This document shows positions 6,592-31,934 of a stretch of 31,934 bases of DNA, in pieces (the first letter of the stretch is position 1; the number at the start of each line of letters is the position of its first letter). Source of the stretch: a virus. The notes below the pieces were generated by a model. The model saw only the letters and a list, made by a program, of their open reading frames with translations, searched no databases and was not told the origin of the DNA. The DNA is taken from the IMG/VR virus record IMGVR_UViG_3300035698_001964, positions 1-31,934 of that record; one strand, 5' to 3'. The position numbers were made by a program, and so were the translations under genes.

Positions 6592-7439
6592 TACTTCTTA
6601 ATAGATTTTATTAAATCTTGAAACTCTTTAACACTAATATTAATATCCCAACTATCTTTAACTTCTTGTAACCTTAGCTTAGATTCCTTCTTTCTTTCAT
6701 CTGCTGAAATAAATTTCTTAAGGTCTTCTACACTAGTAGCCACTGGCATTCCTAATGCCCAAGCTGTGATAGTTTTATTTGGAGATTTATATTTAAACTT
6801 ACCTTTAACACTAAATGGATTAACTACTATATCTCCTTCAAGTATATCTCTATTCACTGTATCTGCTGACCAAGATAAGTTTCTTAGTTCTATATCACCT
6901 GCTGCTGTTGCTGGCAAATGAAATCCACCATCTGAGATAACTATAAGATTTAACTTAAGTTTCTTTAAAAAATGAACTACTGGTTTGAGTAAATCAAAAT
7001 TACTAGAGTAACCATACCATACAACTGTCTTTGCGTCATTTTCGTGAAACTTACGTGCAGTATGTTCTGATAAATCTATTCTATCTGGTATACATAATAC
7101 TGGTTTCTTAGTGAATTGTCTGACAGATTCTGCTAATGCTTCCGTAGATGTTGTTATAGCATCTACTTCTTCTATCATTTCTTTAGTTCTATAAGCCCAA
7201 TGTAACCAATCTGGGTCACAAAGGTCTAATATCTTTACTCCTTTAAAGGCTTTGGCGTGGTCTACAAAGTATGCTTTCTGGTATATAACAGCATCGTACT
7301 TTTGCCCCATCTTGAATAGTTCAGCCTCTTCCCAGTATTTAGCCAACCATTTACCACGTATCCTTGAAGAACCAATATTCTTTCTACCGTGGAACTGCTC
7401 AAAAGACAGAATGCCGCATCTTTTATTTCCTTGTACCAT
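6591..7439 (-). CDS. GT4-like glycosyltransferase whose start lies in an HNH gene
   Basis: A 282-residue GT-B glycosyltransferase, short for the family. The N-terminal domain opens with CGILSFEQFHGRKNIGSSRI, followed by CDPDWLHWAYRT and the acceptor-side strand AITTSTEALAESV. The C-terminal donor domain is seen in VVWYGYSSNFDLL, LNLIVISDGG and SPNKTITAWALGMPVATS. The usual E-x7-E motif is replaced by a KSPNKTITAW stretch, as in some phage and bacterial relatives that lack it. The ATG is in the +1 frame within the last six codons of the HNH gene upstream (17-base overlap). The first residues (MVQGNKR) look like a cassette-supplied extension in front of a normal glycosyltransferase N terminus. 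Confidence 0.8.
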   Translation of the reverse strand: MVQGNKRCGILSFEQFHGRKNIGSSRIRGKWLAKYWEEAELFKMGQKYDAVIYQKAYFVDHAKAFKGVKILDLCDPDWLHWAYRTKEMIEEVDAITTSTEALAESVRQFTKKPVLCIPDRIDLSEHTARKFHENDAKTVVWYGYSSNFDLLKPVVHFLKKLKLNLIVISDGGFHLPATAAGDIELRNLSWSADTVNRDILEGDIVVNPFSVKGKFKYKSPNKTITAWALGMPVATSVEDLKKFISADERKKESKLRLQEVKDSWDINISVKEFQDLIKSIKK

Positions 7440-7977
7440 ATCCTTTTTTAGTTAAATTATGACACTTATAACATAATGTTTGTCCATTACTTATGTCCCA
7501 CAACTGTTTACATTTATAAGCTTCATCTTGCGAATTAATTTTATATTTATCTAGTAGTAAAACAAATTCAATTATATGATGTCCTTCTATTCTACCACCT
7601 CTTTTATTACAATTATGACAAGTGAAATCATCTCGTTCAAAAACTACTTTACGCCAATTTTTATATCTAAGTCCTTTTCTTAACTTTTCAGCTAAACAAC
7701 TTTTACCACCTAACCATCTATGATGTTTTTCACCAGTAGGGAGATTTCTTGTTTCACCTAACCATAGTCCTTTGCCTTTTCTAGCAATACTCATCTTAAC
7801 CTTAGATTCTTTACTATGCTTAGTATTATGAATAGGCATTGAGTGGTGTTTTAACCTTTCCTGAACTGCACATACTGAACATCGTTTAGATTTATACCCA
7901 GCTAAAGGCTTTTTACAGTCTAGACATAATCTATCAAACCTTGTCTTTTTAAATTGTCCTTTGTTATTCCTTTTCAT
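7423..7977 (-). CDS. HNH homing endonuclease with zinc finger and NUMOD3 motif
   Basis: A 184-residue protein. An N-terminal CLDC...CSVC zinc finger is followed by a NUMOD3-like DNA-binding segment (HSKESKVKMSIARKGKG, residues about 54-70). The C-terminal HNH nuclease contains FERDDFTCHNC, GGRIEGHHIIEF and NGQTLCYKCHNLT, with two zinc-binding CxxC pairs and the catalytic His in GHHI. Free-standing enzymes of this family cut DNA at specific sites and promote their own spread. The gene ends 17 bases inside the glycosyltransferase gene and begins shortly after a broken glycosyltransferase 5' end at 8024-8044. Closest relatives in the window are the HNH genes at 9144 and 20911. Confidence 0.88.
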   Translation of the reverse strand: MKRNNKGQFKKTRFDRLCLDCKKPLAGYKSKRCSVCAVQERLKHHSMPIHNTKHSKESKVKMSIARKGKGLWLGETRNLPTGEKHHRWLGGKSCLAEKLRKGLRYKNWRKVVFERDDFTCHNCNKRGGRIEGHHIIEFVLLLDKYKINSQDEAYKCKQLWDISNGQTLCYKCHNLTKKGYGTRK

Positions 7978-9068: not shown

Positions 9069-9151
9069 GGGACGTCAAGAATGCGAACTGGCTCGTGTAG
9101 CCCAAATACATTCTCCTTTCCCTTGGCACTTTGTGTCTTTCCATTATTCAT
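9056..9151 (-). pseudogene. N-terminal codons of the frameshifted glycosyltransferase (recoded 5' end, locus A)
   Basis: A 31-codon ORF begins ATG at 9151, overlapping the last 8 bases of the HNH gene in the +1 frame, and ends in TAG at 9058-9056. It encodes NVFGLHEPVRILDVPWHI near its end, which is the expected start of the glycosyltransferase continuing in the -1 frame (AHQYDFMRLP). Its codons are GC-richer than the surroundings, for example CGC ATT CTT GAC GTC. A homologous but differently coded copy lies upstream at 9828-9893. Confidence 0.7.
9062..9129. repeat. 11-bp perfect inverted repeat bounding a GC-rich 68-bp patch
   Basis: The arms at 9062-9072 and 9119-9129 (GTGCCAAGGGA / TCCCTTGGCAC) are perfect reverse complements. 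The 68 bases they enclose are visibly GC-richer than the rest of the window. The patch covers most of the replaced glycosyltransferase 5' end, and the frame break lies 3 bases outside one arm. It could be a structural by-product of insertion, a small element, or coincidence. Confidence 0.6.
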
Positions 9152-9653
9152 TTGTTTGAATATTAATAATTATTTTTCCTACATTTTTATTATGTAGTCC
9201 TCTATGATGTTTCGTGCATAGAGTAATACCGTTCTCTAACTTATATCTATCCTTTATAAATAATCTAAATAACTTTATATGGTGTGGAACTAATACTCCA
9301 CCTTTCACTTTACATACTTGGCAAGTGTAATCATCTCTTTCGTACACTGCTTTACGCCATTGTTTCCATTCACTACTAGCCCTTGCCCTATGACTTTCAT
9401 CTGACTTACCACCTTTCCAGTTGTAATGGTCTTTTCCTTTACTGCCACATTGAGGTGCTGATATATCTTTATTCCAAGGTGGCTTATTGTACATTGGGTT
9501 ATTAACACCCATCTTAGATTTACTATTAGACTTAGCATTACCTTTGTTTGCACAATCAGTTGAACAATATCTAGTCTTATCTTTCTGGTATGGGTATTCG
9601 TAGTATTCCTTGCCACATAGTAGACAGTTCTTGTATATACCTTTCTTAGCCAT
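9144..9653 (-). CDS. HNH homing endonuclease
   Basis: A 169-residue protein. The N-terminal zinc finger is formed by CLLC and YCSTDC, residues about 10-34. A linker with PMYNKPPWNKD resembles the NUMOD3-type DNA-binding region of the other HNH genes. The nuclease core is WRKAVYERDDYTCQVCK, GGVLVPHHIK and NGITLCTKHHRGLH. The catalytic histidine pair and the CxxC zinc ligand are intact, so the enzyme should be active. It lies downstream of a truncated glycosyltransferase 5' end and a tiny zinc-ribbon gene, and its last codons contain the ATG of the replacement 5' end. Confidence 0.88.
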   Translation of the reverse strand: MAKKGIYKNCLLCGKEYYEYPYQKDKTRYCSTDCANKGNAKSNSKSKMGVNNPMYNKPPWNKDISAPQCGSKGKDHYNWKGGKSDESHRARASSEWKQWRKAVYERDDYTCQVCKVKGGVLVPHHIKLFRLFIKDRYKLENGITLCTKHHRGLHNKNVGKIIINIQTNE

Positions 9654-9702
9654 AATATTTGATTAATTATGTACTAAGATTAGAATATTCTAAACAAAAG
9701 GT

Positions 9703-9831
9703 CTAATTGGTGGGTTTTGGAAGCTTTATTCTGTACTCACAATCAAGACACTCGTAATAGTCATTTATTATAATCATATACCTATCTGCTTCCTTACAAA
9801 ATGGACATCTTCTTGGTCTTTCATTACTCAT
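9703..9831 (-). CDS. tiny zinc-ribbon protein
   Basis: A 42-residue protein with RRCPFC near the N terminus and ECLDCEYRIKLP near the C terminus, the two CxxC knuckles of a minimal zinc ribbon. Its ATG overlaps the TGA of the truncated glycosyltransferase head by four bases (ATGA), so it probably depends on translation of that remnant. It could be cargo of the HNH insertion or an older resident gene. About 50 bases of A/T-rich sequence separate it from the HNH gene. No further function can be assigned. Confidence 0.6.
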   Translation of the reverse strand: MSNERPRRCPFCKEADRYMIIINDYYECLDCEYRIKLPKPTN

Positions 9832-9893
9832 ACATCTAATATCCTAACATTCTTATCTAGACCAAATACGTTTTTCTTATTTTCTTTAGACAT
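9828..9893 (-). pseudogene. truncated glycosyltransferase 5' end (locus A)
   Basis: A 21-codon ORF behind an A/T-only leader, ending in the peptide NVFGLDKNVRILDV and then TGA. The last 14 residues match NVFGLHEPVRILDV of the replacement copy at 9056-9151 at 11 of 14 positions. Most synonymous sites differ, for example AGG ATA TTA GAT GTA here against CGC ATT CTT GAC GTC there. It therefore looks like the native start of the glycosyltransferase, cut off at the insertion point of the HNH cassette. Confidence 0.75.
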
Positions 9894-20031: not shown

Positions 20032-20939
20032 AATTTTTTAAATAATTCTAAATATTCTTCTCCCATCTCATCTATAGTTTTAACTTTGTAAGCTGTAGCA
20101 AACTTTTTACTATTATCTATCTTGAGTATCCTACTGTTGTGGTATACCTCCATAGAACCACCTACTCTATTTAGATATAATGGTCTAACATCACAAGCCA
20201 TAGCTTCTAGTAGTGTATTCGGATATGCTTCACAAAAGCTTGGGTATAATAGATAATCACACTTCTTCATTAACAGAGCTATTGATTCTGGTCTTTCTAA
20301 TACTCCTATATAGTCTACTTGAGCATTTACATTCAAATCCCAATTAAATTGAGGATTTTCTTTGTATACTTTAGGAGAATTACCAGCGATTATTAACTTA
20401 GCTTTATTGTTCTTTCTCCATTCCATCTCAAACCAATATAACGCTTCTTCAAACCTTTTGTTTGGATTTGGGTTATAGTCTATATACAAATAAGTATTAC
20501 CATCTGAGAACCTATCTTTGTTATTAAAGAAATCTGAATCTACTCCGTTATTTATTGTAACTTCGTTATCGTTTTTAATAAAATAACCAGCAAATTCCTT
20601 AGCCCACTTAGACTGATAAACTACTGCTGAAGCAATATTACCAAACTCAGTAAGCCTTTCTGCTGGTTGCATCCGTTTATTCCTAGACTTTCTAGGTATA
20701 TTATCTATTCTTAATACTAATTTCTTACCTTGTTTTACTGCCTCGTGAACTAATCCTTTGTCCATAGCTGTTATACCAAACACAAAGATAATGTCACACT
20801 CTTGCCAAGTGTTAACGAATTGTACTTTGCTTTCTAGTGTTTTCTTAAAGTTTCTGAGAAAAGTATGCCCCCCACCAAGAGTACCACTACTCACGTTGGT
20901 TACATAAATTTTAATCTTTTCTATTTGCTTTACTTCCAT
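20025..20939 (-). CDS. GT4 family glycosyltransferase whose start lies in an HNH gene
   Basis: A 304-residue GT-B enzyme. The N-terminal part has KIKIYVTNVSSGTLGGGHTF, CDIIFVFGITAMDKG and VVYQSKWAKEFAGYF. The donor domain has YLYIDYNPNPNKRFEEALYW, KLIIAGNSPKVY, and the E-x7-E motif in CEAYPNTLLEAMACDVRPL. All expected segments are present. The first eight residues (MEVKQIEK) precede the natural glycosyltransferase start and are encoded inside the HNH gene in the +1 frame (29-base overlap). A differently coded, truncated copy of the same N terminus lies upstream at 21494-21538. Confidence 0.85.
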   Translation of the reverse strand: MEVKQIEKIKIYVTNVSSGTLGGGHTFLRNFKKTLESKVQFVNTWQECDIIFVFGITAMDKGLVHEAVKQGKKLVLRIDNIPRKSRNKRMQPAERLTEFGNIASAVVYQSKWAKEFAGYFIKNDNEVTINNGVDSDFFNNKDRFSDGNTYLYIDYNPNPNKRFEEALYWFEMEWRKNNKAKLIIAGNSPKVYKENPQFNWDLNVNAQVDYIGVLERPESIALLMKKCDYLLYPSFCEAYPNTLLEAMACDVRPLYLNRVGGSMEVYHNSRILKIDNSKKFATAYKVKTIDEMGEEYLELFKKLC

Positions 20940-21447
20940 AATTATCTGTTAATTTATGACACTTTTTACACAATGTCTGTCCATTACTTATTTCATATGC
21001 TAATTCTGGGTATTTAACAACTGCTTTAATATGGTGTGGTTCTAATCTACCTCCTCTTTCTTTACATTCTTGGCAAGTATAATCGTCTCTAATAAATACT
21101 GCCTTTCTCCATTTCTTCCATCTAACATCATCTTTTAGTATTTGAGATAAACTTCTTTTACCTCCATTATCATTCCAGGGCTTTTGACCCTTCTTAAAAC
21201 ATCCTTCAAATTTAGTATTCCAATTAGGGTGTCCTACCATACTTGACATCTTCTTACCTAAATGTGCATTTCTATTCTTTTCTTTCGCTTCTTCTGTATG
21301 TGGTTTATTGTGGGTAAATATACCAGACTTCTTGAAACATTCTTTTCCACAAAATCTAGGTTTTCTTGATATATGTGTAATAAACTTCTTACGACAGTAC
21401 TCACAAGTAAATTCTTTCTTTCGTGTTCCTTTCTTATAGTTATTCAT
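20911..21447 (-). CDS. HNH homing endonuclease with zinc finger and NUMOD3 motif
   Basis: A 178-residue protein. It has an N-terminal zinc finger (FTCEYCRKKF...FCGKECF), a NUMOD3-like helix (HTEEAKEKNRNAHLGKKM), and a C-terminal HNH nuclease: WRKAVFIRDDYTCQECKERG, RLEPHHIKAV and NGQTLCKKCHKLTDNYG. Its C-terminal sequence is close to that of the HNH gene at 7423, and in both a TATGG inside the last codons supplies the ATG of the following glycosyltransferase. Catalytic residues are intact. Confidence 0.88.
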   Translation of the reverse strand: MNNYKKGTRKKEFTCEYCRKKFITHISRKPRFCGKECFKKSGIFTHNKPHTEEAKEKNRNAHLGKKMSSMVGHPNWNTKFEGCFKKGQKPWNDNGGKRSLSQILKDDVRWKKWRKAVFIRDDYTCQECKERGGRLEPHHIKAVVKYPELAYEISNGQTLCKKCHKLTDNYGSKANRKD

Positions 21448-21493: not shown

Positions 21494-21538
21494 TTAAAGA
21501 CTACCACTAGATGTATTTGATATATATACTTTTATCAT
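21494..21538 (-). pseudogene. truncated glycosyltransferase 5' end (locus B)
   Basis: A 14-codon ORF, MIKVYISNTSSGSL then TAA. It matches IKIYVTNVSSGTL of the glycosyltransferase at 20025-20939 at most positions, and the changes are conservative. The codons differ in part: AAT ACA TCT AGT GGT here, AAC GTG AGT AGT GGT there. It breaks off just before the GGGHTF loop. Its ATG overlaps the TGA of the AP2-HNH gene. It looks like the native gene start left behind by the HNH insertion. Confidence 0.75.
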
Positions 21539-22044
21539 ATAATTATATTTTGATAAGCAAGCTCACCATATAGTTCCTTTGCTTTTTTATTATACCAGAT
21601 TGCTGCTTCTTTTTCTGTATTACACATTTTTGTTAAACATATATATTCTAATGTTTTTCTTCTTCCTCTCTCAATCTGTCCTCTCCATATACCTGTTTTT
21701 TTATATTGACTAACACCTTTATGTTTTGATAAACAATCCTTTTGTTTCATAGCTCTTTGATTAGTACCAGAGATACCATTGGTCAATGTTGTTAAATTAC
21801 ATTTTCTAAAATCTAATCTATTACCGTTCTTCCAAGCAATAGGGTTATGACAACCTACTTTTCTAACAAAGATACTATTTTCCATAGTTAAATGATGCAT
21901 TCTATATTGTACTTGCCAGGACCTACAAACTGTAATTAATTTATTTTTATTTTCACGATAAGCCCAATCAAACCTATTAAGATAATGATAATCCTCATCA
22001 TCTACAATAGCATACTTACCCTGTGTTAAATTAATTCTTTTCAT
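21535..22044 (-). CDS. HNH endonuclease with AP2-like DNA-binding domain
   Basis: A 169-residue protein. The opening MKRINLTQGKYAIVDDEDYH and YHYLNRFDWAYREN is characteristic of phage HNH-AP2 enzymes. The nuclease part has YRMHHLTM and then CHNPIAWKNGNRLDFRKCNL, corresponding to the usual DHxNxNxLDNRxxNL with the Asp changed. It is followed by the AP2 signature SKHKGVSQYKKTGIWRGQI and EKEAAIWYNKKAKELYGELA. The altered first motif leaves activity uncertain. It belongs to a different HNH subgroup from the three zinc-finger enzymes but sits directly upstream of the same glycosyltransferase start. Confidence 0.8.
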   Translation of the reverse strand: MKRINLTQGKYAIVDDEDYHYLNRFDWAYRENKNKLITVCRSWQVQYRMHHLTMENSIFVRKVGCHNPIAWKNGNRLDFRKCNLTTLTNGISGTNQRAMKQKDCLSKHKGVSQYKKTGIWRGQIERGRRKTLEYICLTKMCNTEKEAAIWYNKKAKELYGELAYQNIII

Positions 22045-23163: not shown

Positions 23164-23376
23164 CTAATCATCTGTTCTTTTATTAAATATTCTTCTTAAA
23201 ATATAACTTCTTATAATAGATATAGCTGTAAACCATAATCCTATTATAAAGTTATCTCCTAGTGGTATATCTATTCCAAAATATGGGAATATTATTATCT
23301 GGCTACCACAGGCTACTAAGTAACCTACTAATACATTCACAAAACTTTCTAATAAACTATACTTCTTTGCTTGCAT
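23164..23376 (-). CDS. conserved phage two-helix membrane protein
   Basis: A 70-residue protein with two membrane segments, residues of about 13-33 (VNVLVGYLVACGSQIIIFPYF) and about 42-60 (NFIIGLWFTAISIIRSYILR), and a short basic tail RRIFNKR. This matches a widespread phage family with the pattern ...SLVE...N...G...A...Q...FP.FG......N......F...S..RSY.LRR.F, which I recall being listed as DUF7220. Function unknown. Its start overlaps the stop of the upstream gene. Confidence 0.75.
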   Translation of the reverse strand: MQAKKYSLLESFVNVLVGYLVACGSQIIIFPYFGIDIPLGDNFIIGLWFTAISIIRSYILRRIFNKRTDD

Positions 23377-23756
23377 TATAACATTTTAATTACTTCGTCC
23401 ATTAGTTGCATAAACTGTTTTACGGAACTAACTTTGATTAACTTCTTGTCTTTTAGGTGTTTAATAAGCTCATAAGCTTGTTTACCTCTATCCTTTGCTC
23501 TCTCTTGACTATAAACTGGGTAGCTTTCCCTTATTATATAAGGGTAGTAATAACCCTGCCACCAGTCCCAACAACTAATGTTTCCATTGTATTCTGTTGT
23601 TGTACCGTTTTGTAAATTAACACCAGTTCCCATATTGAGTTCTAGTCCTACGTTACCACCACTAGCATTATAACTAGGCTCAACTGTAAATGTGAGATTA
23701 TCCCCAACATCTTGGTTGAGGCAACTCATAGTTAACTCTCTTTCCTCATTTCCCAT
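23376..23756 (-). CDS. hypothetical 126-residue protein, first gene after the structured non-coding region
   Basis: The N-terminal half is beta-type and Asn/Gly-rich (NLTFTVEPSYNASGGNVGLE). The middle has an aromatic cluster CWDWWQGYYYPYIIRES, and the C-terminal 55 residues are helical (KQAYELIKHLKDKKLIKVSS, VKQFMQLMDEVIKML). A similar helical tail occurs on several small phage proteins. The ATG at 23756 lies just inside the 1-kb structured region and has an AAGAG-containing purine stretch upstream. Role unknown. Confidence 0.55.
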   Translation of the reverse strand: MGNEERELTMSCLNQDVGDNLTFTVEPSYNASGGNVGLELNMGTGVNLQNGTTTEYNGNISCWDWWQGYYYPYIIRESYPVYSQERAKDRGKQAYELIKHLKDKKLIKVSSVKQFMQLMDEVIKML

Positions 23757-23828
23757 ACTCTTGTTCCTTTCCGACTTAACCGTGTATTACCAAAGTTAAG
23801 GCGTTGTTAATTTATTAATCTTCTAATC

Positions 23829-23957
23829 ACTGGGGTCATCGGTTTGACACTTTTATCACCGAAGTCATCGTTAACTCCTCTCTACGCATTTGAGAATCGC
23901 TACTCATTCGGCTTCTGTCTAGACTGACCGAGAGAGGTCTGACGACCTCACCCCAGT
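23829..23957. ncRNA. candidate structured element closed by an 8-bp stem
   Basis: ACTGGGGT at 23829-23836 pairs perfectly with ACCCCAGT at 23950-23957, enclosing about 110 bases that are clearly GC-richer than the surroundings. Inside are GAGGTC-TGAC-GACCTC (23934-23949), TGAG/CTCA around 23891-23906, and CGG/CCG-flanked segments. The strand cannot be decided from the pairing. It may be a structured leader of the gene at 23376-23756, a separate RNA, or a DNA site. Confidence 0.45.
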
Positions 23958-23989
23958 AACTAAAAGACTAATCTTTATTATTTCTTACT

Positions 23990-24110
23990 CTAGGTGCAAG
24001 ATGACAGTTGTCTCTACTATTAGCAAGGCTGTAGTTACACTTGCACCTTATCTTGCCAGTCTATAAATAGAGTGGCAGAGCTTTGATGTAACTTTTCATC
24101 TTGCGTCTAG
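23990..24110. ncRNA. candidate 121-nt structured RNA with a 15-bp closing helix
   Basis: Bases 23990-24004 pair with 24096-24110 over 15 positions. On the plus strand two of these are G-U pairs, while on the minus strand they would be mismatches. AGTTACA at 24033-24039 pairs with TGTAACT at 24087-24093. Within that, 24055-24076 is a hairpin GCCA-TCTAT / ATAGA-TGGC with one internal mismatch. GACA/TGTC at 24003-24012 adds a small hairpin. Nested helices of this kind are typical of a folded RNA. The G-U pairs hint at the plus strand, opposite to all genes here. Confidence 0.5.
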
Positions 24111-24113
24111 AAT

Positions 24114-24142
24114 AAAAAAATAGCCGACATAAAAGTCAGCTC
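24114..24142 (-). terminator. intrinsic (rho-independent) terminator
   Basis: On the minus strand AGCTGAC (24141-24135) and GTCGGCT (24128-24122) form a 7-bp stem with one G-U pair and a 6-base loop, followed after one A by seven Ts (24120-24114). The G-U pair exists only in the minus-strand RNA, which supports this direction. It ends whatever starts at the promoter 24704-24732. Confidence 0.8.
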
Positions 24143-24697
24143 TATAAAATTCCTCCAGATGTAGTTTCATTAAACATAATTATTTTATTTTAATAATATA
24201 CTTAGCCATTATCCCTATAGTCGATGAAACAATAGGGAGTGGCTCATCTAACCAGACATCCATTGATTCTGGCTTTTTATGTACAGTAACCTCAACTCGG
24301 TGAGTTTGGTTCTGCCATAATAACTAAATATATTATACCTAGCCCCCAATCAAACCTCCTCGAGAGCAAGTTCGATTGTGAGCAAATATCAATAAACAGA
24401 AAATGACAAAATGTTTATCGCCCAAATAACTTGGGAACTAGACATACTATACTGATTTAAAAGGTACGTGTGACTTTGTGAGTGGCTATTTTGAACTGTT
24501 TAATACTATATGTGGATAAATGTATATCTCACTTACAACTCGTCTTATATTATAAACTTTATATGACAACTACTAATCCCCTTACCTACTTATATGATAA
24601 CCAATCATCTATGAAAAAATTGAAATATATAAAATAACTACTTTAAGAGTTTTTTATTTAAAGACGAATTGTAAAGGAGCTATGTTTATATTGTTAT
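24114..24697 (-). ncRNA. candidate large structured RNA, about 580 nt, with its own promoter and terminator
   Basis: A 15-bp helix with two G-U pairs joins 24661-24675 to 24532-24546 (minus-strand RNA UUUACAAUUCGUCUU / AAGACGAGUUGUAAG). Further stems follow: 24421-24435 (CCCAA/TTGGG), ATAAACA/TGTTTAT at about 24392-24418, 24347-24378 (9 bp, one G-U), 24288-24311 (AACTC/GAGTT plus AACC/GGTT), 24252-24272 (CCAGA/TCTGG), 24204-24244 (7 + 5 bp) and the terminator hairpin. Three of the helices need G-U pairs that exist only on the minus strand. The size class and phage context recall ROOL/GOLLD-type RNAs, but I cannot confirm membership. A short open frame overlaps the 3' half. Confidence 0.55.
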
Positions 24698-24703
24698 GTC
24701 CTT

Positions 24704-24732
24704 AGACTAGCATAAAAATAACGATTTGTCAA
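24704..24732 (-). promoter_or_regulatory. sigma70-type promoter for the candidate large RNA
   Basis: On the minus strand a perfect TTGACA (24732-24727) is followed by a 17-base spacer ending TATGC and the -10 hexamer TAGTCT (24709-24704). The TG one base before the -10 box makes it an extended -10. It lies 20 bases past the stop codon of the large terminase, and the predicted start is near 24697. The promoter at 31377-31405 has the same spacing and the same TATGC preceding its -10. Confidence 0.7.
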
Positions 24733-24751
24733 TATTGGATTTTTACTATCT

Positions 24752-26371
24752 CTATGCCATAAACACTTCTGCCCCAGCAACATTAAAAACATTAACTGCT
24801 AACTTAGCATAATTACAAGCGTGGAATAAATGGTCTGGTCCACTTTCTATATAACTAGCTTTCTTGATACCTGCCGCATCTTCTTTGATTACTCTAACTG
24901 GTGCTTGTAAGTGTGCTTCAAATTCTAAATCTATATCTAAATTAGTTGGTAACTTTATCTTTCTATTCTTGAACTCTGCCACCATATGGTCAAGAGATAC
25001 TGTTCTGTTAGTATTTACTTTGTCTTTATCTACTTGCCAATATCTATCACTAGCTTTTAATTCAGCCATACCTGTATAGTAACACATTTTAACTTTTCCT
25101 TTATAGGCTGTAATGAATTCAGCTACTTTTCTGGTTTCTGGGAGTGCGTCTATAACTACACCTCTTACTTGAAACTTTTTCATTAGTTCTTCTAGTGAAG
25201 CTATTGGACCAAAGAAATCCTTAACTGAACCAAATGCTAGTATTCTGTCATCTGCATCTCTGACTACATAATGTAATTTAGAGCCTACATCAACACCCAT
25301 AAATGTTCCTTTGACATTTGTAACTGGTGCTTTAAAGTCTGTTTTACAAGCTAATATGTCAGAAGCATTAATCTTATCTCCTTTAGGTTCGTACGGTAAT
25401 CCTAGGTTCTGGTTATAAAACTGTTGCTGTTCTGCCTCATTGTCGCTGTGAAACGCTTTTATGAACTTTTTAATATCTAACCTTGGGGAATATAACTGAC
25501 TTACGTGATAGCCTCTGATGTCTCTCTCTGGAAATTTAGCTATCCACTTACCTTCTAATTGCCAAGGGACTATTGGTTTTCTACATTTAGCACATACTAT
25601 TCTGATGTTCTCGAAGTCTACATTAATCATATGGTCTAAGACCTGCCACTCACTACAATGGTTACATTTAACGTGTAGGTGCATTTGGTCTGATTCCATA
25701 AACATTTTATGAATACCAAAGTTCATATAAGTAGGGGTACTAGCCCATCTCTGCCATTTCAAAGTACTATGTTCTAATCTTTTATCAAAATAAGGTATGT
25801 TCTCTACTGTCATTCTATCTACCTCATCTACAAATATAGCGTCACCTGGAACTGATGTAATTTGTGACAAAGAGTTACTACCACGAAAGTAGACAAACCC
25901 TTTAGACATTTTCTTCAATCCTATCTTATCTGCGTGTTTTCCTAATATTCTTTTTGCTCTACCTGATACTTCACTGAGGTACTGACTATTGTTTATTGGT
26001 TGGTCTATTCTTTCCTGTACTAAATCTCCCATAGAACCAGTAGTTGGAAAAAAGTATAACGAATTGTATTCGTGTTGGTCTGGTAACCACAATGCTTCTG
26101 TAAGCATTCTTTCTGTTAAACCAGTCTGGGCTGATTTCATTATAACTATATGAGGATGCTGGTCTTCATAGATTCCAGTTAGATATTTATGTTCTACGAA
26201 ATCTAAAGGCTTACCTCTAGTTGTCCAATTGTCTTGTACCCATAGAAAGTAACCATTCTTCTTATTCTTCCACGATGTCTGCCTTCCTTTCTTCATCGTC
26301 TTCATCGCTTCCATTATCACTTTCTGCTTCGATAACAGCTTGTCTTCCTTGTTTTGTATATTTATCAGCAT
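24752..26371 (-). CDS. large terminase subunit, GpA type
   Basis: A 539-residue packaging motor protein. The ATPase domain has the Walker A-like MKSAQTGLTE (residues about 78-87), YFFPTTGSM, then FRGSNSLSQITSVPGD, Walker B DAIFVDEVDRM (about 177-187) and the coupling motif WASTPTY. A CNHC...CAKC zinc knuckle at about 236-263 is typical of the lambda GpA group. The nuclease domain has FMGVDVGSK (Asp361), GVVIDALPETRK (Asp408) and a late GPDHLFHACNYA. It cuts concatemers and drives DNA into the prohead. The ATG at 26371 overlaps the upstream gene by 110 bases. Starts at 26314, 26305 or 26296 are possible. Confidence 0.93.
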   Translation of the reverse strand: MLINIQNKEDKLLSKQKVIMEAMKTMKKGRQTSWKNKKNGYFLWVQDNWTTRGKPLDFVEHKYLTGIYEDQHPHIVIMKSAQTGLTERMLTEALWLPDQHEYNSLYFFPTTGSMGDLVQERIDQPINNSQYLSEVSGRAKRILGKHADKIGLKKMSKGFVYFRGSNSLSQITSVPGDAIFVDEVDRMTVENIPYFDKRLEHSTLKWQRWASTPTYMNFGIHKMFMESDQMHLHVKCNHCSEWQVLDHMINVDFENIRIVCAKCRKPIVPWQLEGKWIAKFPERDIRGYHVSQLYSPRLDIKKFIKAFHSDNEAEQQQFYNQNLGLPYEPKGDKINASDILACKTDFKAPVTNVKGTFMGVDVGSKLHYVVRDADDRILAFGSVKDFFGPIASLEELMKKFQVRGVVIDALPETRKVAEFITAYKGKVKMCYYTGMAELKASDRYWQVDKDKVNTNRTVSLDHMVAEFKNRKIKLPTNLDIDLEFEAHLQAPVRVIKEDAAGIKKASYIESGPDHLFHACNYAKLAVNVFNVAGAEVFMA

Positions 26372-31354: not shown

Positions 31355-31376
31355 ACTTTTTTTTATTTATAAGATA

Positions 31377-31405
31377 ATTTTAGCATAGTTTAGCCTATTT
31401 GTCAA
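31377..31405 (-). promoter_or_regulatory. sigma70-type promoter
   Basis: On the minus strand TTGACA (31405-31400) is separated by 17 bases ending in TATGC from the -10 box TAAAAT (31382-31377), with an extended -10 TG. The -35 box overlaps the stop codon of the 47-residue ORF. It should drive the gene starting at 31354 and the operon beyond. The same layout is found at 24704-24732. Confidence 0.75.
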
Positions 31406-31545
31406 AATTTTAATCTTTTACTTACTCTTTTCTTTAATTTTTTATTTTGTTTAATTATTCCCGATTCTAGAATAACAGCAGTAATCATCGTACCACTAAA
31501 TAGTCCTAATATAAATGTTGCTATTATTTCTGTGTTTGTATCCAT
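31402..31545 (-). CDS. tiny membrane protein
   Basis: A 47-residue ORF with one hydrophobic helix (IIATFILGLFSGTMITAVIL) and a strongly basic C-terminal tail (QNKKLKKRVSKRLKF). It has an AAAGGAT ribosome-binding-like sequence before its ATG, unlike most genes here. The shape resembles small phage membrane proteins, but no family is certain. Confidence 0.5.
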   Translation of the reverse strand: MDTNTEIIATFILGLFSGTMITAVILESGIIKQNKKLKKRVSKRLKF

Positions 31546-31632
31546 ACTTATCCTTTCTTTTACTTAATTATTGTTTTTTAGCTTTATCAATAATAACCTC
31601 TTTTCTTATTATCTTATTCCCTTTAAGGTTGT

Positions 31633-31791
31633 TTATTTTGTAGTGGGTTTTTTACCTTCAACTTCATCTATTAATTCTTGTGGTGTTCCTAGTATAACAA
31701 ATTTACTAGCCATATTATTAGCAACCTCTTTTGGTAAATCTCTACCAATGTATAATACTTTGTCTTTTAATGCTTGTTCTAATGTTTTCAT
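31633..31791 (-). CDS. hypothetical 52-residue protein
   Basis: The ORF encodes MKTLEQALKDKVLYIGRDLP and MASKFVILGTPQELIDEVEG with a Lys/Thr-rich end. The ATG follows the A/T leader typical of the window. About 70 bases downstream have no ATG-started frame. No family is recognised. Confidence 0.5.
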   Translation of the reverse strand: MKTLEQALKDKVLYIGRDLPKEVANNMASKFVILGTPQELIDEVEGKKPTTK

Positions 31792-31823
31792 AATTTTATA
31801 CTTAGATTGCGGAGCAAGCTCCT

Positions 31824-31934
31824 TTACTTAGTTATTTCCCTGTAGGTTTTAGTAATACTTAATTTTGGTTCAATGTAATTTTTATACCAGCGAAAAACAA
31901 ACTTATCTATAAATCCCCAATCACATCCAGAACC
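31824..31934 (-). CDS. partial gene, C-terminal 36 residues
   Basis: The only open frame at this edge ends SITKTYREITK then TAA at 31826-31824. The visible part (GCDWGFIDKFVFRWYKNYIE) is aromatic and charged. Its identity cannot be decided. A 12-base palindrome-like hairpin GGAGC-TT-GCTCC follows the stop at 31811-31822. Confidence 0.55.
   Translation of the reverse strand, partial: GSGCDWGFIDKFVFRWYKNYIEPKLSITKTYREITK

Follow-up and report, generated by a model that had tools for sequence, protein, structure and literature searches.

A probable minus-strand, multi-domain noncoding RNA locus between the terminase gene and a small gene of a phage with tRNA-rich relatives

Results

Genes and features of the gap

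The window, that is, the whole 31.9-kb stretch of DNA that was analyzed (31,934 nt, an IMG/VR virus record), carries its genes on the minus strand. Its longest intergenic gap, 995 nt in length (23757-24751), is noncoding and is located between the gene for the terminase large subunit (TerL) on one side and a gene for a 126-aa protein on the other. This agrees with the initial annotation, according to which no other gap in the genome was this long. Open reading frames longer than 51 aa are absent from the gap, and the search for small open reading frames and protein homology in the gap identified neither homologues nor protein remnants. The features of the gap and its neighbors are as follows, in the order of the minus strand.

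24752-26371, minus strand: TerL gene, upstream neighbor (PHROG 675, E 1.6e-113)
24704-24732, minus strand: promoter-like site, with TTGACA at 24732-24727, a 17-nt spacer and the extended -10 sequence TGC-TAGTCT at 24709-24704 (predicted start at about 24697)
24524-24683, minus strand: domain D1, AT-rich, with an imperfect 23-nt closing helix of which 15 bp are uninterrupted (two G-U pairs)
24334-24446, minus strand: domain D2, with an alternative 16-bp closing helix (four G-U pairs) around a strong hairpin at 24378-24347
24193-24336, minus strand: domain D3, a four-way junction with three hairpins and an uninterrupted 20-bp closing helix (three G-U pairs)
24115-24141, minus strand: intrinsic-terminator-like hairpin (24141-24122) and the T run behind it
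23981-24119, minus strand, although less certain: domain b, with a 24-nt closing helix of 20 Watson-Crick pairs and two G-U pairs on each strand
23814-23972, minus strand: domain c, a multibranched head with four hairpins and an uninterrupted 23-bp closing helix (four G-U pairs), the strongest helix of the window
23376-23756, minus strand: 126-aa gene of unassigned function, downstream neighbor (homologues in the related contigs L014, L119 and L177)

Elsewhere in the window, two genes matched HNH endonuclease families (20911-21447 and 21535-22044). The alignment of 20911-21447 to the related contig L010 falls at a place to which 7423-7977 and 9144-9653 align as well, and these two segments may thus be HNH genes too. 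Another long segment in which no gene is clearly recognizable (31355-31934, 27% G+C) is located at the contig end and contains no strong helix.

Helices and fold statistics

We searched both strands of the whole window for base-paired helices with spans of up to 200 nt. The four best helices on the minus strand were all located inside the gap, and so was the best helix on the plus strand. The four consist of a 23-bp helix (23972-23950/23836-23814), a 20-bp helix (24336-24317/24212-24193), a 16-bp helix (24446-24431/24349-24334) and a 15-bp helix with two G-U pairs (24675-24661/24546-24532), the last of which is exactly the long-range helix described in the initial annotation. The best helix score was 47.2, as compared to a maximum of 34.4 across 300 shuffles that keep the dinucleotide composition, and the scores of the top four helices summed to 148, as compared to 83.6 +/- 7.6 in the shuffles. 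When the search was made strand-neutral and only Watson-Crick pairs were scored, the top four inverted repeats in the 32 kb again fell inside the gap. These close the domains at 24683-24524, 24336-24193, 24119-23981 and 23972-23814, and a weaker fifth helix closes 24446-24334. The closing stems across the five domains, most of which are multi-branched, are 15-24 bp.

The predicted folds were most stable for domains c (z -6.75 on the minus strand and -2.5 on the plus strand), D3 (-6.1 and -4.4) and b (-5.6 and -3.9), followed by D2 (-3.7 and -3.2) and D1 (-2.8 on both strands). The segment 24697-24114 as a whole gave z -3.9 on the minus strand and -2.9 on the plus strand. For the full transcript, the pair probability was at least 0.95 for the closing helices of D1, b and c (0.99 for c) and 0.99 for the D2 hairpin at 24378-24347. 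The closing helix of D3 reached a pair probability of only about 0.5 because alternative pairings compete.

Strand bias of the wobble pairs

In the four strongest inverted repeats and three weaker ones, the positions that are not Watson-Crick pairs include 16 that form G-U pairs on the minus strand, 3 that do so on the plus strand and 6 others. The natural explanation for this bias is selection on a minus-strand RNA, since selection at the DNA level would leave no strand bias. The minus-strand fold is also the better one for D2, D3, b and c, with D1 equal on the two strands and domain b ambiguous in strand. The claim of a structured, noncoding RNA locus on the minus strand, and the argument from wobble pairs that had been offered for its strand, thus stand: there is no open reading frame, the helices exceed those of all shuffles and the wobble split is 16:3.

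Promoter, terminator and extent of the locus

The promoter-like site combines a perfect -35 element and a 17-nt spacer with an extended -10 element that matches the consensus in three of six positions, which makes it a fair candidate only. The weak -10 element is also the reason why the site was not listed by the consensus scan, and the earlier label of a consensus promoter was therefore generous. The hairpin and T run of the proposed intrinsic terminator are present, but the one site found compares with 0.6 expected by chance in a stretch of this size. Since its T run overlaps the 5' arm of domain b, the RNA made by read-through would differ from the terminated one. Domains b and c are located 3' of the terminator and outside the segment 24114-24732. 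Thus, the structure that had been placed in this segment is found there, but the locus is larger than the approximately 580 nt first described, which cover about two thirds of the gap at its 5' side: the gap measures 995 nt and the structure reaches 23814.

Searches for homologues and known RNA families

Searches with blastn against phages and plasmids returned only short AT-rich matches to the RNA. Looking up 17-19-mers as exact strings in IMG/VR and in GTDB genomes gave no match except for one to a Planctomycetota contig, which is attributed to chance. Good relatives of the phage were identified by way of TerL (IMG/VR) and the neighboring genes, none of them with the RNA, and the TerL search of GTDB genomes gave none. 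No copy was recognizable in the relatives by blastn, by nhmmer or by blastn against the whole records. Covariance models of domain D3 (R1) and domain c (R2), run over 770 kb of relatives, recovered only the window itself and chance matches, and the domain c model found no copy in 14 full records. The best match to R1 (L012 286-427, 16 bits with filters off) also scores on the wrong strand, and was therefore read as reflecting a long helix alone and not homology. The RNA is an orphan within the sequence searched (phages, plasmids, IMG/VR patterns and 770 kb of relatives).

Across the whole window, no Rfam family reached its gathering threshold; when 23700-24800 was scanned with permissive settings, the matches that appeared all stayed below threshold and belonged to unrelated families. 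The suggested membership in the ROOL or GOLLD families found no support in covariance models: neither ROOL (RF03087, gathering threshold 99.1 bits) nor the conserved part of GOLLD (RF02032, 150 bits) matched at E values up to 10, although the ROOL model gave no match in the control genomes either. HEARO and OLE, which had been named along with these two for an Rfam comparison, group I and II introns, tmRNA and the other Rfam models gave no family-level match in the window, and no tRNA or tmRNA was found there with ARAGORN or Rfam. Both tmRNA and introns were dropped as candidates. An integron attC-type site was dropped since its core motifs were not seen by eye, and a retron or DGR RNA since no reverse transcriptase occurs among the window proteins searched.

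tRNA genes and long-stem domains in the relatives

Alignments of TerL identified approximately 14 contigs of the same clade (47-63% TerL identity), which share the genes for a polysaccharide deacetylase, an SpoVG-like protein and others. In these relatives, tRNA genes occur between TerL and SpoVG and in the surrounding sequence: 13 in L014, including a single cluster of nine just before SpoVG, and 24 in L119. The 24 tRNA genes of L119 (2447-10161) occupy a 14-kb part of a phage contig and flank TerL on both sides; approximately 300 nt of structured-looking noncoding DNA (9541-9858) is located within this array, between tRNA-Met and tRNA-Glu. The interval holds variable cargo, namely small genes, tRNA genes and other RNAs, and the name packaging region that had been given to it is therefore misleading.

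The noncoding DNA of the clade contains 15 domains of 60-200 nt with long closing helices in 29.4 kb. This corresponds to 0.51 per kb, as compared to 0.03 in Markov sequences matched in base composition and 0.17 in other phages, which were not so matched. Ten of the long-stem domains have fold z values of -4.3 to -8.9, and several are located directly beside a tRNA gene (L013 356-444, L120 5720-5808, L119 10166-10259 and L010 1255-1359, with z -5.6 to -8.9).

Domains of 80-110 nt with long stems, mostly three-way junctions, were seen at L017 4762-4851 and 4872-4981, L013 356-444, L120 5720-5808 and L121 3955-4033 (z -4.3 to -8.9); those of L013 and L120 lie just 3' of a tRNA gene. They possibly represent one small RNA family. 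Long hairpins with CCTCC loops, resembling an anti-Shine-Dalgarno sequence, are located just upstream of the deacetylase gene in L009 (6197-6259, with a near-consensus promoter in front) and L018 (12198-12297), and are possible small RNAs.

RNA A, a candidate new family upstream of TerL

Three relatives contain a noncoding RNA of approximately 345 nt upstream of TerL, here called RNA A.

L013 456-800: RNA A
L016 4819-5159: RNA A
L017 4987-5332: RNA A

Its predicted structure has 102 pairs, 24 of which are changed on both sides among the three sequences, and 97% of the cells are paired, as compared to 39-45% of cells and 0-4 such pairs when the partners were slid; because these three sequences also served to derive the structure, the counts are biased in its favor. 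The conserved strand is TTTGCAAAAATAAAAGATGAA, with a probable pseudoknot of the form GGCTC...CTTAA...GAGCC...TTAAG. Near-consensus promoters (TTGACT/TTGACA and TATAAT) were read directly from the sequence upstream of RNA A in L017 and L016. In Rfam, nothing scored above chance (best match manA, E 0.51), and RNA A is a candidate for a new RNA family. With default settings, its model (R3) did not match anywhere in the window.

RNA A and the RNA of the window belong to the same phage clade, are noncoding and share a long closing helix and long-stem domains, which in the case of RNA A precede it. They differ in fold and in the position of RNA A upstream of TerL, and the gap scores only 8.9 bits on the 346-position model with filters off.

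Discussion

Most safely stated, the gap is a noncoding RNA locus on the minus strand that has several domains and is specific to this lineage, and the clade to which the phage belongs carries its tRNAs and other structured RNAs in the same variable region. The explanation that we consider probable goes further and holds that the locus is of the tRNA-island type and encodes stable, trans-acting RNAs, a function that we infer. In its favor, the four top inverted repeats are all in the gap, wobble pairs are biased 16:3, the helices go beyond those of the shuffles and the D3 and c folds (z -6.1 and -6.75) are weaker on the plus strand. There is no open reading frame or protein homology, and the relatives have tRNA islands, an excess of long-stem domains and the compensated RNA A. 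Against it count the lack of a homologue, the weak -10 element, the near-chance terminator and the ambiguous strand of domain b.

In this explanation, transcription would start near 24697 and stop in part at about 24115, yielding an RNA of approximately 580 nt with D1, D2 and D3, and in part read through into b and c. At 15-24 bp, the long closing stems would either guard the RNA ends or serve as substrates for RNase III or another RNase that cuts double strands, and the domains, made during infection, would persist as stable RNAs. Instead of serving as leader or packaging site, they would act in trans by binding to proteins or RNAs of the host or the phage, and the locus would be the lineage's counterpart of the tRNA and small RNA islands in the same variable region of the relatives. 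Stable trans-acting RNAs guarded or processed by their stems are the most likely mechanism, as suggested by the stem lengths and by the neighborhood in the relatives. More tentatively, and with considerable doubt, the locus may represent a new class, in which tandem multi-branched domains with RNase-cut stems of 15-24 bp provide a set of stable RNAs that is exchanged between phages as tRNA-island cargo.

Phage T4 encodes RNA C and RNA D, stable structured RNAs of approximately 100-150 nt and of unknown function in its tRNA cluster. These are also stable structured phage RNAs kept together with tRNA genes, but T4 is an unrelated phage and the window has no tRNA.

Four other explanations are less likely than stable trans-acting RNAs, in the order given here. 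The transcript of approximately 580 nt might fold as a single unit and self-assemble into a cage or scaffold, like the ornate RNAs ROOL and GOLLD, phage RNAs that assemble into homo-oligomeric nanocages and are often located close to tRNA islands (PMC12286853). The length and setting are similar, ROOL being phage-encoded, multi-branched, linked to tRNA islands and about 580-660 nt (PMC12286853) and GOLLD a large phage RNA with the same link, and the palindromic loop GTCTAGAC at 23924 could kiss, although such palindromes are common by chance. However, the RNA matches neither model at any reported threshold, and the locus appears modular, with closing stems that are very long and uninterrupted, a structure that continues past the terminator and two of its best domains beyond that point. 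We therefore consider such an assembly unlikely.

A structured 5' leader is somewhat less probable again. RNA reading through from TerL or from the 24697 promoter would then control the 126-aa gene (start at 23756) via c, b or both, consistent with the end of domain c 57 nt short of the ATG, the terminator-like hairpin in the path and the co-directional genes. Yet almost 1 kb with five domains is far beyond the usual length of a leader, and homologues of the 126-aa gene occur without one; in L014, the preceding open reading frame stops 23 nt before the gene.

An element acting as DNA, such as a replication origin, a pac or cos site or a recombination site that folds as single-stranded DNA, would fit with inverted repeats that adjoin the terminase gene, but its selection would be strand-symmetric, in conflict with the wobble split and the better minus-strand folds of D2, D3, b and c, and we regard it as improbable. 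Least credible of all is a decayed gene or mobile-element remnant (an intron or HNH-linked element) that folds by accident, as the HNH endonuclease genes in the window might suggest, given that no Rfam intron family and no protein remnants were found and that the helices are far above the shuffles.

For most large structured phage RNAs no function is known; recent work has shown that ROOL and GOLLD assemble into cages made of RNA alone. The tRNA-rich regions of the clade hold several unrelated large RNAs, namely the five-domain orphan locus and the covarying 345-nt RNA A, and this suggests a class of phage cargo that is broader, and changes faster, than the RNA families catalogued so far. The locus supplies concrete sequences for tests of expression and processing.
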